Below the pieces are notes generated by a model. The model saw only the letters and a program-made list of their open reading frames with translations. It was not told the origin of the DNA and did no database searches. From an uncultured Actinomycetes bacterium (lineage in GTDB: Bacteria > Actinomycetota > Actinomycetes > Nanopelagicales > Nanopelagicaceae), in NCBI GenBank assembly GCA_903843225.1, contig CAIMOX010000031.1:1-64000 (forward strand): a DNA stretch of 64,000 bases. Direction: 5' to 3'. This document shows, one piece after another, positions 2,040-44,394 of the stretch; within the stretch, counting starts at the first letter, position 1; the number at the start of each line of letters is the position of its first letter. The position numbers were made by a program, and so were the translations under genes.

Positions 2040-3428
2040 GTGGCAATAGGTACTGGCCGAAGATATCTCACCTTGCGCCTTCTCGCAGTGGGATTACTAC
2101 TTCTGCATCTGGGAATCCGCTTAATCTTTCCACAGCCGACGATCTTCTCAGATCTCATCCTCTTTAATGCGATCGCTCTCTGCGCAGCCCTCTCGGCCTA
2201 TTACGCACCGCTCTTTAATGACCGCCTTGCGACAATCACTATCGGTCTCGCTTTGGGATGCTGGACCTTCGGATCTTGTATTAGCTCTTGGAACTCATTT
2301 ATGACCTTTCAGATCTGGCCACGCGGAACCGATATCGCATATGCACTGTTCTATCCGCTCATTCTCTTTGGAATGATTCGTGCGCTATCTGCAAAGCGTC
2401 GAGTGCGGGCCCTCGAGCTTCTCGATGTGCTAATCATCGCACTCGGTGTATCCGGTGTAATTGCATCGCTCTTATTAGCGCCAGCAATGGTCGCCTTCAC
2501 TGGTACACCGTTTACAGTCTTCCTCTCAATTCTTTATCCAATTGGAGACTGTGTCCTCCTTGCGATTGCCGTCGTTGCACTTATCTTCCAGCGAAGGGGG
2601 TTGAGATCAATCATTATGTTATTTGGCATCGCTATTTTTGCTGCTACCGATCTTTACTTCCTCTGGAAATCTGCGACTACTGGCTACGGGTTTGCATCGC
2701 TCATCGATGATGGGTGGGTTTTAAGTTTGCTGATCATCGCCGAATCGCTATGGCACAAAGGTGGAGAAGGTGAGCTCTCAGATCGCGTAACGGGAGTTGC
2801 GGCCACACTCGCACTTGTCGCCAGTGCGACGATTCTTGGCATAGCTGCGGTGAGACCACATTACTTCCCAACATTTGCACTGGTACCAGCGCTCATCACG
2901 ATCATGCTCGCCTTCTTGCGCATGTCCGTCGCACTTCGAGAGGCGCGACTTGCTCATAGCGATCGGGAGCTAGCGCGAATTGATGAACTCACCGGGTTAG
3001 CCAACCGACGGAGATTTCTTGCCGAAGTAGAGATCCTCGAGCGTAAGGAGGGGACGCTTCTGATCCTAGATTTAGATGGGTTTAAACAGATTAACGATTC
3101 GATGGGACACGATGTCGGAGATCAACTGCTGCGACAGATCTCACTGCGATTTTCCAGATCACTCTCCCACGGCGCGTTGATCGCGCGGCTTGGTGGTGAT
3201 GAATTCGGCGTCATCATCTACGGAGACGAATCGCACGGTGTTGAAGTTGCTCAAGCCCTACTTGCATCGGTCAGTTATCCCATCACACTTGCTTCGGGTA
3301 GTACTGCAATCGGGGTAAGCATTGGGCGAGTGCGAAGTGATGGTAAAGGCGATTTGTTAAAACGTGCAGATAGAGCAATGTATGAAGCGAAACGAAGTAG
3401 TGCCGGGATCGTGCTCGCTCGAGATTAA
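2040..3428 (+). CDS. Membrane-anchored diguanylate cyclase (GGDEF)
   Basis: Makes cyclic-di-GMP from two GTP. Residues about 10-295 form eight or so hydrophobic segments, a membrane sensor region without a recognised ligand domain. A short linker leads to a GGDEF domain (about 305-460). DELTGLANRRRF at 315-326 marks the domain start and GGDEF is at 385-389, intact. The RxxD inhibitory site that normally lies just upstream of GGDEF is replaced by LSHG, so product feedback through the I-site is not expected. The GTG start has no Shine-Dalgarno sequence. A TACCCT box at 2028-2033 would put transcription start at or next to the GTG, so a leaderless message is possible; in-frame TTG (2073) and GTG (2088) codons are alternatives. 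Confidence 0.9.
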   Translation: MAIGTGRRYLTLRLLAVGLLLLHLGIRLIFPQPTIFSDLILFNAIALCAALSAYYAPLFNDRLATITIGLALGCWTFGSCISSWNSFMTFQIWPRGTDIAYALFYPLILFGMIRALSAKRRVRALELLDVLIIALGVSGVIASLLLAPAMVAFTGTPFTVFLSILYPIGDCVLLAIAVVALIFQRRGLRSIIMLFGIAIFAATDLYFLWKSATTGYGFASLIDDGWVLSLLIIAESLWHKGGEGELSDRVTGVAATLALVASATILGIAAVRPHYFPTFALVPALITIMLAFLRMSVALREARLAHSDRELARIDELTGLANRRRFLAEVEILERKEGTLLILDLDGFKQINDSMGHDVGDQLLRQISLRFSRSLSHGALIARLGGDEFGVIIYGDESHGVEVAQALLASVSYPITLASGSTAIGVSIGRVRSDGKGDLLKRADRAMYEAKRSSAGIVLARD

Positions 3429-3433
3429 GGTTC

Positions 3434-4792
3434 CTACTCCGGCTTCTCTGGTTTGCGGGCCTTAATTTCTTCTAAGCGAACCAATGATTCGATTCGCTCG
3501 CTAGCATGGTTCACAATCTGAGCCGGATAATCATGAAGGTAACCATCTAAGACGTTCCATGGTTCGTGAATATCTGGAGCTGCAAGATGGCGAAGCTCTG
3601 GTAGATACTTTCGGATGTAATCACCATTCTCATCGAAGCGTTTGCCTTGCTCAATCGGGTTAAAGACGCGGTAATACGGCGAGGCATCGGTGCCGGTACC
3701 GGCGGTCCATTGCCAGCCATGGGAGTTAGAGGCAACATCCCAATCGACTAGATGCTCCTTGAAGAAATCTGCTCCGAGTTGCCACTCTAAGTGAAGATCC
3801 TTTACTAAAAATGAAGCGACAACCATACGTGTTCGGTTGTGCATCCACCCTTCGAGGACGAGCTGGCGCATGGCGGCATCAACGAATGGGTAGCCAGTTT
3901 TGCCTTCACACCAAGCGCGAAACTTATCCCCTGGCTTGTCATATCTCATCGCGGCAAATTGCGGTGCGTAGTAATCATTTACGGTATGGGGGTTATGGTG
4001 AAGTACATCGCCATAAAACTCGCGCCACGCGAGTTCTTTACGATATGTGTCGTGAGCCTTTGTTTGATTCAGCTCTGCAAGCAGTGTGCGCGGATGAATC
4101 TCTCCCCATTTGAGGTGCGCACTCAACTTGCTGGTGCCATCGATCCCGGCGAAGTTTCGTCTTTCGTCATATTGATCGAGGCTATTCTCTTTAAACCAAG
4201 CCCACCGCTCAAAGGCTGCTTCTTCACCGGCAGGTGTGACATTCACATCAGCTGGCATCTCCCAACTAGGGAAGCTGCGATCTGATTCGCTCGGTGTAAC
4301 GGTAGGAATCTCGACTGGTGTTGGGGCGGGATCACGCCAACCATGTGCGAGCCAGGCTTTGTAAAACGGTGTGTAGACCCGGTACGGAGTGCCATCACTT
4401 GGCTTACGGACACGACCCGGTGCTACTGCATACGGACCACCGGTTCGGATTAATTGAATTCCGGAGGCTTCAACTCGTTCATCGCGCGCTTTGCCATATG
4501 GCTCGAACTCTTCTGAAATATGTACTTCTTTTGCATCATAACGCTTCATCAAATCCTGTAGCACAGTGACTTGATCTCCCACCATTGCATGGAGTGAGTG
4601 ACCAAGAGCGCGATCGAGTTCGCGAATCGATTGGCTCATATATGCCAAGCGCTTTCCACCACTCTGGGTATTCTGCTTGGGATCAAGGATAAAGACCGGA
4701 ACTATTTCATCACCAGCTGCGATTGCAGCGTTCAGCGCAGGGTGATCCGAGATCCGAAGATCTCGGCGAAACCAGATGATAGAGCGAGTCAC
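3434..4792 (-). CDS. phr: Deoxyribodipyrimidine photolyase (cryptochrome/photolyase family)
   Basis: Light-driven repair of cyclobutane pyrimidine dimers in DNA, with FAD as cofactor. The 452-residue length is typical of class I photolyases. The N-terminal alpha/beta antenna domain starts with WFRRDLRISDH (7-17). The C-terminal FAD domain shows WREFY, EGWMHNRTRM, a WQWTAGTG-type block and the YYRVFNP/KYLPEL end, all hallmarks of the family. It is convergent with the diguanylate cyclase (5 nt apart) and lies about 30 nt beyond the citrate synthase gene on the same strand. A CarH-like photosensory regulator is encoded at 41-42 kb; photolyase genes are common targets of such regulators, but no operator is visible here. 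CPD versus 6-4 specificity is judged by overall class I likeness only. Confidence 0.93.
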   Translation of the reverse strand: MTRSIIWFRRDLRISDHPALNAAIAAGDEIVPVFILDPKQNTQSGGKRLAYMSQSIRELDRALGHSLHAMVGDQVTVLQDLMKRYDAKEVHISEEFEPYGKARDERVEASGIQLIRTGGPYAVAPGRVRKPSDGTPYRVYTPFYKAWLAHGWRDPAPTPVEIPTVTPSESDRSFPSWEMPADVNVTPAGEEAAFERWAWFKENSLDQYDERRNFAGIDGTSKLSAHLKWGEIHPRTLLAELNQTKAHDTYRKELAWREFYGDVLHHNPHTVNDYYAPQFAAMRYDKPGDKFRAWCEGKTGYPFVDAAMRQLVLEGWMHNRTRMVVASFLVKDLHLEWQLGADFFKEHLVDWDVASNSHGWQWTAGTGTDASPYYRVFNPIEQGKRFDENGDYIRKYLPELRHLAAPDIHEPWNVLDGYLHDYPAQIVNHASERIESLVRLEEIKARKPEKPE

Positions 4793-10668: not shown

Positions 10669-12465
<1,797 letters not shown>

Positions 12466-12500: not shown

Positions 12501-12526
12501 GGGGCTAATCGAGAGGAACCTCTCGA
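12482..12526. promoter_or_regulatory. Two operator-like palindromes upstream of the sugar-ATPase gene
   Basis: CTAGAGC-CC-GCTCTAG at 12482-12497 overlaps the predicted -10 box. TCGAGAGG-AA-CCTCTCGA at 12509-12526 lies just past the predicted start point. Both are perfect, even-length palindromes with 2-nt centres. A third inverted repeat, CGGGCA-N6-TGCCCG, is at 12546-12563 in the leader. The geometry suits a dimeric repressor such as a LacI or TetR family sugar regulator, but no such gene is nearby. Confidence 0.5.
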
Positions 12527-12582
12527 CCTTCATCCAACGGACCGTCGGGCACGTACCTGCCCGGAGAAGGAGAAACTGAGCC

Positions 12583-13668
12583 ATGGCTTCAGTCGTATTC
12601 GAAAATGCATCACGTATCTACCCAGGCACAACTAAGCCTGCAGTCGATAAATTAAACCTCACCGTTAACGATGGCGAATTCCTCGTCCTTGTTGGCCCAT
12701 CAGGTTGCGGAAAATCAACATCACTTCGCATGCTCGCTGGCCTCGAAGAAGTCGATGGCGGAACTATCCGCATCGGTGATCGCGATGTCACCAACGTTGC
12801 ACCAAAAGATCGCGATATCGCGATGGTCTTCCAGTCTTACGCGCTCTACCCCCACATGTCAGTCGCTGAAAATATGGGCTTCGCCTTAAAGATTGCAGGC
12901 GTTGACAAGGCTGAGCGTGATCGCCGAGTTCTTGAAGCAGCAAAGCTGCTCGATCTCGAGCCATACCTTGATCGCAAGCCAAAGGCGCTCTCTGGTGGAC
13001 AACGCCAGCGCGTTGCCATGGGTCGTGCGATTGTTCGCGAACCACAAGTCTTCTTGATGGACGAACCACTCTCTAACCTTGATGCAAAGTTGCGCGTAGC
13101 AACTCGCACTCAGATCGCAGCGCTACAACGCCGCCTCGGCATCACAACTGTCTATGTCACCCACGATCAGGTTGAGGCTATGACTATGGGCGATCGTGTT
13201 GCTGTTCTGAAGGATGGCCTCCTTCAGCAAGTCGATACTCCTCGTAATCTCTATGACAACCCAGCAAATGCATTCGTTGCTGGCTTCATTGGGTCACCTG
13301 CCATGAACCTCTTGAACGTTCCAGTCAGTGGTGGCAAGGCACATGTTGGCGGTTTTGACGTCGACGTTCCTTCATCAGCTGGATCAACAGTCACTGTTGG
13401 TGTTCGCCCAGAAGGTTTCGCGCCATCAGCAAGTGGCTTTAAGGTCCTTGTAGAAGTTGTGGAAGAGCTCGGCTCTGATGCATTTATCTACGGAAAGCCA
13501 GTCGATGAGAGCGTTAAGTTCGCTCAATCTGGTGATGAAGGTGCGCAAGTGATTGTTCGCTGGGATCCTAAGAATCCTCCAAAGGCGGGCGAGACTATTA
13601 CTGTCTCAGCCCTTCCAACAGCGATCCATCTCTTTGATGCAACAACGGGAGAGCGTCTCGTCAAGTAA
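12583..13668 (+). CDS. Multiple-sugar ABC transporter ATPase (MsiK/UgpC-like), orphan
   Basis: A 361-residue cytosolic ATPase that energises CUT1-type carbohydrate importers. Walker A GPSGCGKS is at 38-45, the signature LSGGQ at 136-140 and Walker B FLMDEP at 157-162, followed by an H-loop in YVTHDQ. The C-terminal third is the OB-fold regulatory domain seen in MalK, UgpC and MsiK. No permease or binding-protein gene is adjacent, as with Streptomyces MsiK, which serves several sugar importers. GGAGAAGGAGA precedes the ATG. The spacer upstream has several palindromes and may carry sugar-responsive control; a strong terminator follows. Confidence 0.92.
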   Translation: MASVVFENASRIYPGTTKPAVDKLNLTVNDGEFLVLVGPSGCGKSTSLRMLAGLEEVDGGTIRIGDRDVTNVAPKDRDIAMVFQSYALYPHMSVAENMGFALKIAGVDKAERDRRVLEAAKLLDLEPYLDRKPKALSGGQRQRVAMGRAIVREPQVFLMDEPLSNLDAKLRVATRTQIAALQRRLGITTVYVTHDQVEAMTMGDRVAVLKDGLLQQVDTPRNLYDNPANAFVAGFIGSPAMNLLNVPVSGGKAHVGGFDVDVPSSAGSTVTVGVRPEGFAPSASGFKVLVEVVEELGSDAFIYGKPVDESVKFAQSGDEGAQVIVRWDPKNPPKAGETITVSALPTAIHLFDATTGERLVK

Positions 13669-41045: not shown

Positions 41046-41987
41046 CTATAGACCTACTGCACGCTCAATATCGCTACAGGCGCTCATTAAATCAGTGGCG
41101 AGGGTTGCACCCTTGAGCTCTTGCGAGCTCCATCCTGGACCGCCGACAATCACGAGTGGCTTCGGCCTTACCGAAGGTAGATCAGAGATGTATGAAGGGT
41201 CGGCATTCTTACGCAGTTGAGCCCAGAGGAAGATCGCTGGTGGCGCGCTTCGACGAACTACTTCGTTAATTGCAGATGCAGGTGTGCGCGCACCTAAGAA
41301 TTGAATCAAAATTCCTCTCTCAGAGAGCGCGGCAGCGAGCGCAGTAATCGCCAATGAGTGCGTCTCTTCGCCAATGCTTGCAATCAGTACCGGACGTGGA
41401 TTGATCTTGGGGGTGCTTGCATGAATTCGGTTATTAAATAATCGCAGAATTAGATCGGAGAGCAGATGCTCGATCTCAATACCTTCACCCGTGCGTGCCC
41501 AATCATCTCCGACGATGACAAGTAGCGGTACCAAGACTGCGTGCCAGGTCGCTTCAACGCCATGTGATTCGACATGACCTGCAAGAGTCCGTTCGATGAG
41601 CTCGCGGTCTAGTGATCGCGCAGCACGTAGGAGCTGATCTACAAGTGCGTGATCATTCGCCGTAAGAATTGAGTCGAGCAGATGTGAGTGTTGGGCGTTT
41701 TGAGAGTTCTTGTGTAGCTCAGAGTCAGGGAGTGCGAGTGCGGCGCTCGCTGCATCAATCGGTGGCACACCCTCAATAATTAATTTGCGCATGTAGAGCA
41801 GGCGAGCGAGATCTTCGTGGGAGTAGCGTCGGTGCGCGCCATCGATATGTCCGCTTGGTCCGATTCCATACCGTCTAGCCCAGGTTCGCAGTGTTCCGGG
41901 GGCGACGCCGATCCTTCTGGCGACCGAGGCAACACTCATCTCAATCTCAGATGTGTAGCGGTCGATGCTCTCCATACCCCCAAGCAT
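41046..41987 (-). CDS. MerR-type regulator with cobalamin-binding light-sensor domain (CarH/LitR-like)
   Basis: A 313-residue transcription factor. Residues about 17-75 are a MerR-like winged helix (SVASVARRIGVAPGTLRTWARRYG). The middle region (about 100-190) is the four-helix cap domain with W163-x9-E173-H174, the same spacing as the W-E-H motif that caps adenosylcobalamin in CarH. The last third is a Rossmann-like B12 fold with E208-x-H210 in GEETHS (the cobalt-binding His position) and VIVGGPGW near the end. Known relatives are tetrameric repressors in the dark that release DNA when light breaks the Co-C bond. It is divergent from whiB with 90 nt between. ATG 41975 and 41939 are alternative starts; no clear ribosome site precedes 41987. 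Confidence 0.85.
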   Translation of the reverse strand: MLGGMESIDRYTSEIEMSVASVARRIGVAPGTLRTWARRYGIGPSGHIDGAHRRYSHEDLARLLYMRKLIIEGVPPIDAASAALALPDSELHKNSQNAQHSHLLDSILTANDHALVDQLLRAARSLDRELIERTLAGHVESHGVEATWHAVLVPLLVIVGDDWARTGEGIEIEHLLSDLILRLFNNRIHASTPKINPRPVLIASIGEETHSLAITALAAALSERGILIQFLGARTPASAINEVVRRSAPPAIFLWAQLRKNADPSYISDLPSVRPKPLVIVGGPGWSSQELKGATLATDLMSACSDIERAVGL

Positions 41988-42041
41988 GGTCGTAAGTGAG
42001 GCAGATCTCCACCCGAAACCGCTTCACGGCTTGTCCAGTAC

Positions 42042-42070
42042 TTGAACAATCTATGAAACGATTGTAGAGT
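42042..42070 (+). promoter_or_regulatory. Sigma-A promoter of whiB giving a leaderless mRNA
   Basis: TTGAAC (42042-42047), 17-nt spacer, TAGAGT (42065-42070). Transcription would start at about 42077-42078, the first base of the whiB ATG, and no Shine-Dalgarno sequence precedes that ATG. Confidence 0.75.
42046..42065. promoter_or_regulatory. Inverted repeat inside the whiB promoter spacer
   Basis: ACAATC-N8-GATTGT fills the space between -35 and -10 of the whiB promoter. MerR-family proteins often bind here; with a normal 17-nt spacer binding would repress. The divergent CarH-like gene is the obvious candidate regulator, but this is inference. Confidence 0.5.
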
Positions 42071-42077
42071 CCCACCT

Positions 42078-42395
42078 ATGAACGAAAACGCGCGCTTACC
42101 GAAGCCAGTTGCCTCCTCATGGGAGTGGCAGTTCTCCGGCGCCTGCCGCGATCTCCCGTCAGAGATGTTCTTCCATCCTGATGGTGAGCGTGGCCCACGC
42201 CGCCGCAATCGCGAAAATACCGCGAAGGCGATCTGCGCAACCTGCCCTGTTATTCAAGCCTGTCGTGAACAAGCTCTTGCTGCCCATGAGCCATATGGAA
42301 TTTGGGGCGGCCTCTCCGAGGATGAACGCGTCGCAATCAATGAGCGCCGCAAACCTCTCAGCGCTGTCGCAAATGAGCTGTCGACCGCTTCGTAA
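42078..42395 (+). CDS. whiB: WhiB-family iron-sulphur transcription factor
   Basis: A 105-residue Wbl protein that works with sigma-A to control transcription in response to redox/NO through a [4Fe-4S] cluster. Four cluster Cys are C23, C53, C56 and C62 (C-x29-C-x2-C-x5-C), followed by the GIWGG turn (74-78) and a basic tail with NERRK. Synteny with Mycobacterium (groEL1-groES side) corresponds to whiB3, but assigning it to that subfamily needs a tree. It has a strong leaderless promoter with an operator-like repeat and is followed by a terminator shared with groEL1. Confidence 0.93.
   Translation: MNENARLPKPVASSWEWQFSGACRDLPSEMFFHPDGERGPRRRNRENTAKAICATCPVIQACREQALAAHEPYGIWGGLSEDERVAINERRKPLSAVANELSTAS

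Positions 42396-42454: not shown

Positions 42455-44394
<1,940 letters not shown>

Follow-up and report, generated by a model that had tools for sequence, protein, structure and literature searches.

The stretch of DNA analysed here (the window, 64,000 nucleotides from an uncultured actinomycete of the Nanopelagicaceae) carries a MerR-type regulator with a B12-binding domain that is transcribed divergently from whiB, and a conserved palindromic site lies in the whiB promoter between the two genes. The regulator is considered, at slightly better than an even chance, to be a LitR/CarH-like protein that is dedicated to the divergent whiB and controlled by adenosylcobalamin (AdoCbl), acting between the -35 and -10 elements. 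Its family and fold are already known. In the open-access literature, no paper was found that links a CarH/LitR protein to whiB, and the single-site operator and the tail-pocket Trp described below were likewise not found there. A single-target B12-type switch on whiB is a concrete, testable candidate light sensor in abundant lake bacteria; for other freshwater actinobacteria, only cryptochromes, photolyases and rhodopsins have been named as candidates (PMC8591293). If true, a Wbl protein would receive a light or B12 signal, for which no earlier report was found, and CarH/LitR regulation would extend beyond carotenoids.

The regulator and its B12-binding domain

The regulator gene (41,046–41,987, minus strand) encodes a 313-aa protein with three Pfam domains above cut-offs: MerR_1 (residues 17–76), B12-binding_2 (116–180) and B12-binding (200–287). 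These correspond to a helix-turn-helix, a four-helix B12 cap and a Rossmann B12 domain, so that the MerR DNA-binding domain and two-part B12 domain of a CarH protein are seen in both the Pfam assignments and the fold. The best PDB sequence relatives are Thermus CarH (E ~1e-14) and, more distantly, CtMerR. An AlphaFold model built from 19 homologues (mean pLDDT 85.9) has CarH, CtMerR and photocobilins as its nearest solved structures, both in a Foldseek search and by VIA (Z 19–21 over ~190–200 residues). An earlier, sequence-only reading had recognized a MerR-like protein with the CarH capping motif; the Pfam, alignment and fold-search results confirm it and show a CarH-type fold.

The gene order starts with guaA-guaB3-guaB2-regulator, all on the minus strand; whiB follows on the opposite, plus strand, and groEL-groES, again minus, come next. 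The divergent pair is thereby placed between groES-groEL and guaB2-guaB3. The regulator does face whiB (42,078–42,395, plus strand), as that reading had stated. The 105-aa whiB product (Pfam Whib, E 8.7e-24) is assigned to the WhiB3/WhiD class by its Whib domain, its HEPYGIWGG sequence with EPY next to GIWGG, and the groEL linkage of its gene. EPY is the class III triplet described for WhiB3 and is linked with SigA contact (PMC6282962). Besides groEL (42,455–44,092), the window encodes another Cpn60-family chaperonin (10,669–12,462, minus strand; 257.7 bits).

In the alignment with Thermus thermophilus CarH (TtCarH), W163-x9-E173-H174 of the regulator falls on W131 and E141-H142, and E208-x-H210 on E175-x-H177, the lower-ligand site. 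Of 120 homologues paired with whiB, 117 retain W163, and 119 retain each of E173, H174 and H210. By itself, a W-x9-EH match says little, as chance matches occur inside the helix-turn-helix of several relatives, and the alignment is decisive; the near-invariance of these four residues argues that the motifs are not chance matches. The exact spacing of the cap motif and the E-x-H site, both pointed out earlier from the letters, are thus borne out. The regulator probably binds an adenosyl-corrinoid.

Other residues depart from CarH. Homologues of CarH are defined by Wx9EH together with ExHx2Gx41SxV/Tx22-27GG (PMC8156234). The regulator has the ExH and GG of the second motif at the right spacing, with Ala213 in place of the Gly, Trp255 in place of the Ser and Gln257 in place of the Val/Thr. 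Ala or Pro is tolerated at the Gly position, as seen in the alignment with CtMerR (Ala) and SasPcob (Pro). Trp255 is conserved in 117 of the 120 whiB-paired homologues, and Gln257 is conserved too; a Trp at this position is absent from all solved cobalamin-bound relatives aligned. In addition, the light-state cobalt ligand of TtCarH (H132, beside the cap Trp) corresponds to Ala164, which leaves the regulator without the bis-His pair. A TtCarH H132A variant stays tetrameric in light, with dissociation mostly abolished (PMC10442372), although an earlier report differed. The second His is also missing in CtMerR and photocobilins, and CtMerR, with Arg at this position, still photoconverts (PMC11796333). 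The SignatureFinder pattern for light-responsive B12 domains is found in part, with GxxW, EH and GxxxP present and GxxxH in place of GxxH (PMC11796333). The score against the CarH equivalog model NF052513 is 79.5 bits, compared with a cut-off of 400. Because of the altered tail-pocket motif and Ala164, the regulator is, by its residues, not a CarH in the strict sense.

Light may be a signal for the regulator, with the case evenly balanced. The earlier reading had proposed light input into a Wbl regulon; WhiB as the likely output has held, given a single site per genome; light sensing is a candidate function, and two residue features, the tail-pocket motif and the light-state His, are unlike CarH. 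Cobalamin supply is an unlikely alternative signal: the same regulator would act on the same target but report AdoCbl levels in B12 auxotrophs, with photolysis incidental. B12 synthesis is missing from the genomes of acI bacteria, for which import of the vitamin is predicted (PMC5301498), the genome of the window has a PduO-type adenosyltransferase, a cobalamin riboswitch and a single further B12-binding protein, the size of MetH, and Ala164 replaces the light-state His. Nevertheless, the complete W/E/H adenosyl cap typical of photoreceptors is kept, LitR-type kin lie within carotenoid clusters, and relatives without the gene pair still use B12. Indeed, the adenosyltransferase, riboswitch and other B12 genes also occur in pairless genomes, so that B12 need alone fails to explain the pair.

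Rather less likely is that the domain has switched to heme, to a different corrinoid or to no ligand at all, with a signal other than AdoCbl being sensed. The conserved Trp255 and Gln257 in place of tail-pocket residues would fit this, as would the similar fold of the SCHIC heme-type domain of AppA (Z 17.7, below the photoreceptor domains) and the class III LitR proteins that work without B12 (PMC9758184, PMC6739363). However, the lower-axial His and adenosyl cap are almost invariant, and the nearest fold is that of AdoCbl photoreceptors. The idea that Trp255 excludes cobalamin is weakened by LitR-type proteins linked to carotenoid (crt) or sigma factor genes, which carry the same Trp and resemble the B12-dependent LitR of Streptomyces coelicolor (PMC12705666), known here by description only; the Trp alone is therefore no bar to cobalamin. 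Binding of AdoCbl remains the preferred reading, and the change from Ser to Trp255 may mean that cobalamin fits otherwise than in CarH.

The conserved site in the whiB promoter

The 90-bp intergenic region (41,988–42,077) holds two divergent promoters, as judged from its sequence and an alignment of 77 loci. A block, TTGAACAAYNTATGNNNCGRTTGTA, is present at 42,042–42,066 in all 77 readable loci, with 13 invariant positions. In the window this conserved site, TTGAACAATCTATGAAACGATTGTA (plus strand), includes the whiB -35 element (42,042–42,047) and the palindrome ACAATC-N8-GATTGT (42,046–42,065); the -10 element, TAGAGT, lies at 42,065–42,070, 17 bp from the -35, and the whiB mRNA is probably leaderless. 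TTGAAC followed by TAnnnT at this distance is seen in 74 of the 77 loci; in 44, the end of the -10 is 6 nt from the whiB start. This spacing and the position of the -10 mark the block as the whiB promoter with a palindrome in its spacer. Across the loci the palindrome reads ACAAYC-N8-GRTTGT and sits within the 17 bp that separate the -35 from the -10, a placement of the MerR type. A perfect CarH-like half-site, AnnTnnACA, occurs at the -35 in 57 of 77 loci.

At up to three mismatches, exactly one site was found in each of nine genomes bearing the pair, always at whiB, and none in three genomes without it; a reversed-pattern control gave no match either. When a weight matrix trained on Nanopelagicales was applied to 25 pair loci of other families, it found the site in 20 (p ≤ 0.005 vs. 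shuffles), the five loci with no significant site being four of a Microbacteriaceae-like family (f24) and L265. Upstream of whiB genes without a MerR/B12 partner, it was found in none of the 15 best-matching loci, three of which have groEL in the flank and most of which are best matches rather than proven orthologues. From the comparison of 20/25 with 0/15, the site is seen to follow the MerR/B12 gene rather than whiB, at the level of sequence. It is accordingly a candidate operator of the MerR/B12 protein, supported by the alignment, genome scans and families, and an operator suspected earlier at 42,040–42,070 has its counterpart here.

It is quite likely that the regulator binds this site. 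Its single occurrence per genome suggests that the regulator controls only the neighbouring whiB, and makes the WhiB regulon the likely output. The least likely of the alternatives, that the site is a mere whiB promoter or WhiB autoregulatory site while the MerR/B12 protein acts elsewhere, would suit its overlap with normally spaced -35 and -10 elements and the action of WhiB3-class proteins with a sigma factor at the -35 (PMC6282962), but is opposed by conservation of the spacer beyond promoter needs, by the absence of the site upstream of the 15 partnerless whiB genes and by the lack of any further copy in the genome.

Several other arrangements were considered and set aside. Tandem 11-bp repeats of the CarH type do not describe the region, as a second TTGTTC core, 26–27 bp away, is seen in ~20 loci and not in the window. 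An operator common to unpaired LitR-type genes amounted to a loose TGnnnCG core that exceeded the shuffled maximum in two to three of 22 loci. No riboswitch or other Rfam RNA was found in 41,988–42,077. A second block, TTTCAAGTGGTGAGTTnnnCCACTT, with the inverted repeat AAGTGG...CCACTT, is located near the regulator start in many of the loci L048–L109, and may be the regulator's own promoter or an autoregulatory site.

A proposed switch and its known counterparts

In the proposed mechanism, the regulator would bind the palindrome in the whiB promoter spacer (42,042–42,066) and most likely act as a repressor that blocks RNA polymerase, since the spacer is of ordinary 17-bp length. Its C-terminal domain most likely holds AdoCbl, with H210 below and W163, E173 and H174 above. 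In the dark, the AdoCbl-loaded protein would sit on the promoter; once light had removed the adenosyl group, or where imported B12 was lacking, the DNA would be freed and WhiB would increase. WhiB itself would be expected to carry an Fe-S cluster, contact the main sigma factor and relay the signal to its own targets. The output would be the WhiB regulon given EPY next to GIWGG, the triplet tied to SigA contact.

Of the known systems, LitR/LitS of S. coelicolor is similar in design. This LitR is B12-dependent and controls the sigma factor gene litS (PMC12705666); here too, a MerR protein with a B12 domain would drive an adjacent transcription-factor gene that relays the signal, and the Trp that replaces the Ser is also seen in LitR-type kin that have a crt cluster or a divergent ECF sigma gene beside them. 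The partner, however, is whiB rather than a sigma factor, no crt cluster adjoins, and S. coelicolor LitR could be compared by its description. T. thermophilus CarH shares the fold, the Wx9EH cap, the E-x-H lower ligand and the AnnTnnACA half-site at the target promoter, and differs at Ala213, Trp255, Gln257 and Ala164, in its tandem 11-bp repeats as opposed to a palindrome, and in targeting crt genes rather than whiB. CtMerR (8JBS) and photocobilins (8J2W) are AdoCbl photoreceptor domains that also lack the second His and have Ala or Pro at the motif Gly, yet both retain Ser at the Trp255 position, and photocobilins are not MerR proteins. The mycobacterial WhiB3 locus has the groEL-linked whiB partner with EPY-GIWGG, and in M. 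tuberculosis the response of whiB3 is to NO, low oxygen and, via PhoP, acid (PMC6282962); in genomes of family f4, unlike here, a B12-type regulator was not found next to the best WhiB. An earlier statement that no CarH gene stands in the mycobacterial gene order is consistent with this family, in which the gene beside the best WhiB match is non-homologous, without being proved by it.

The photolyase gene that had also been noted in the window is present (3,434–4,792, minus strand). A link to the pair is ruled out by its distance of 37 kb from the regulator and the absence of the conserved site upstream, and no linkage was seen. It is convergent with a GGDEF protein gene (2,040–3,428, plus strand), the two being 6 bp apart.

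Distribution of the pair and its relatives

Across 80 loci, nearly all of them from Nanopelagicales, groEL and guaB2 flank whiB and the MerR/B12 gene as far as the contigs extend, with the exception of L074. In L074 (7,840–8,001), whiB is internally deleted, with ~20 bp to the start of the MerR/B12 domain, and the conserved site is absent; this state may reflect decay or misassembly. The same gene order occurs in many other actinomycete families; it is an ancient arrangement of actinobacteria rather than a peculiarity of this genome.

Both genes were scored in 31 Nanopelagicales genomes: 21 had the two together, nine had neither and one had the MerR/B12 gene only, at a contig end. Five of the nine without the pair have guaB2 immediately after groEL, with no break in the sequence. 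On a GroEL tree, the joint absence would require two losses. The regulator was found in none of 25 genomes of genus g20, only four of which are ≥90% complete. Joint presence and loss support a partnership without proving it, since one deletion can remove neighbouring genes. In all four g20 loci checked (L236–L239), a gene of ~253 codons that begins TLTVDCGGTGIKASV and looks by eye like a kinase gene separates groEL from guaB3, with guaB2 missing from this place.

Homologues of the regulator are found in 127 of 247 genomes class-wide (E ≤ 1e-10). Several copies are located away from whiB, 2–8 kb from a phytoene synthase gene (crtB); in one such case (L146), an ECF sigma gene is transcribed divergently from the copy, as also happens on a Streptomyces plasmid, and both resemble the LitR/LitS arrangement of S. 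coelicolor (PMC12705666). The crt- and sigma-linked copies carry Trp at position 222, and in a quick tree with weak deep support the crt-linked copies fall among the whiB-linked ones. The regulator has the Trp222, A/P180 and GGPGW of these crt-linked, actinobacterial LitR-type kin, as judged by alignment, crt linkage and tree. Neither a sigma gene (litS) nor crt genes stand beside it, its neighbours being whiB, groEL and guaB2. A tentative reading, held with less than even confidence, is that an AdoCbl photoreceptor whose nucleotide-tail pocket has been rebuilt, controlling a WhiB3-class promoter alone, is an old actinobacterial module of which carotenoid LitR proteins are later offshoots. If so, light and B12 would feed a redox regulon.

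Gln replaces the cap Trp (position 131) in the LitR-type copies L139–L144 (family f4), most of which have a phytoene synthase gene nearby, while E141, H142 and H177 are kept. Elsewhere in the window, an msiK RNA motif (Rfam RF01747, 62 bits) lies at 12,520–12,578 on the plus strand, just upstream of a 361-aa open reading frame (12,583–13,668).
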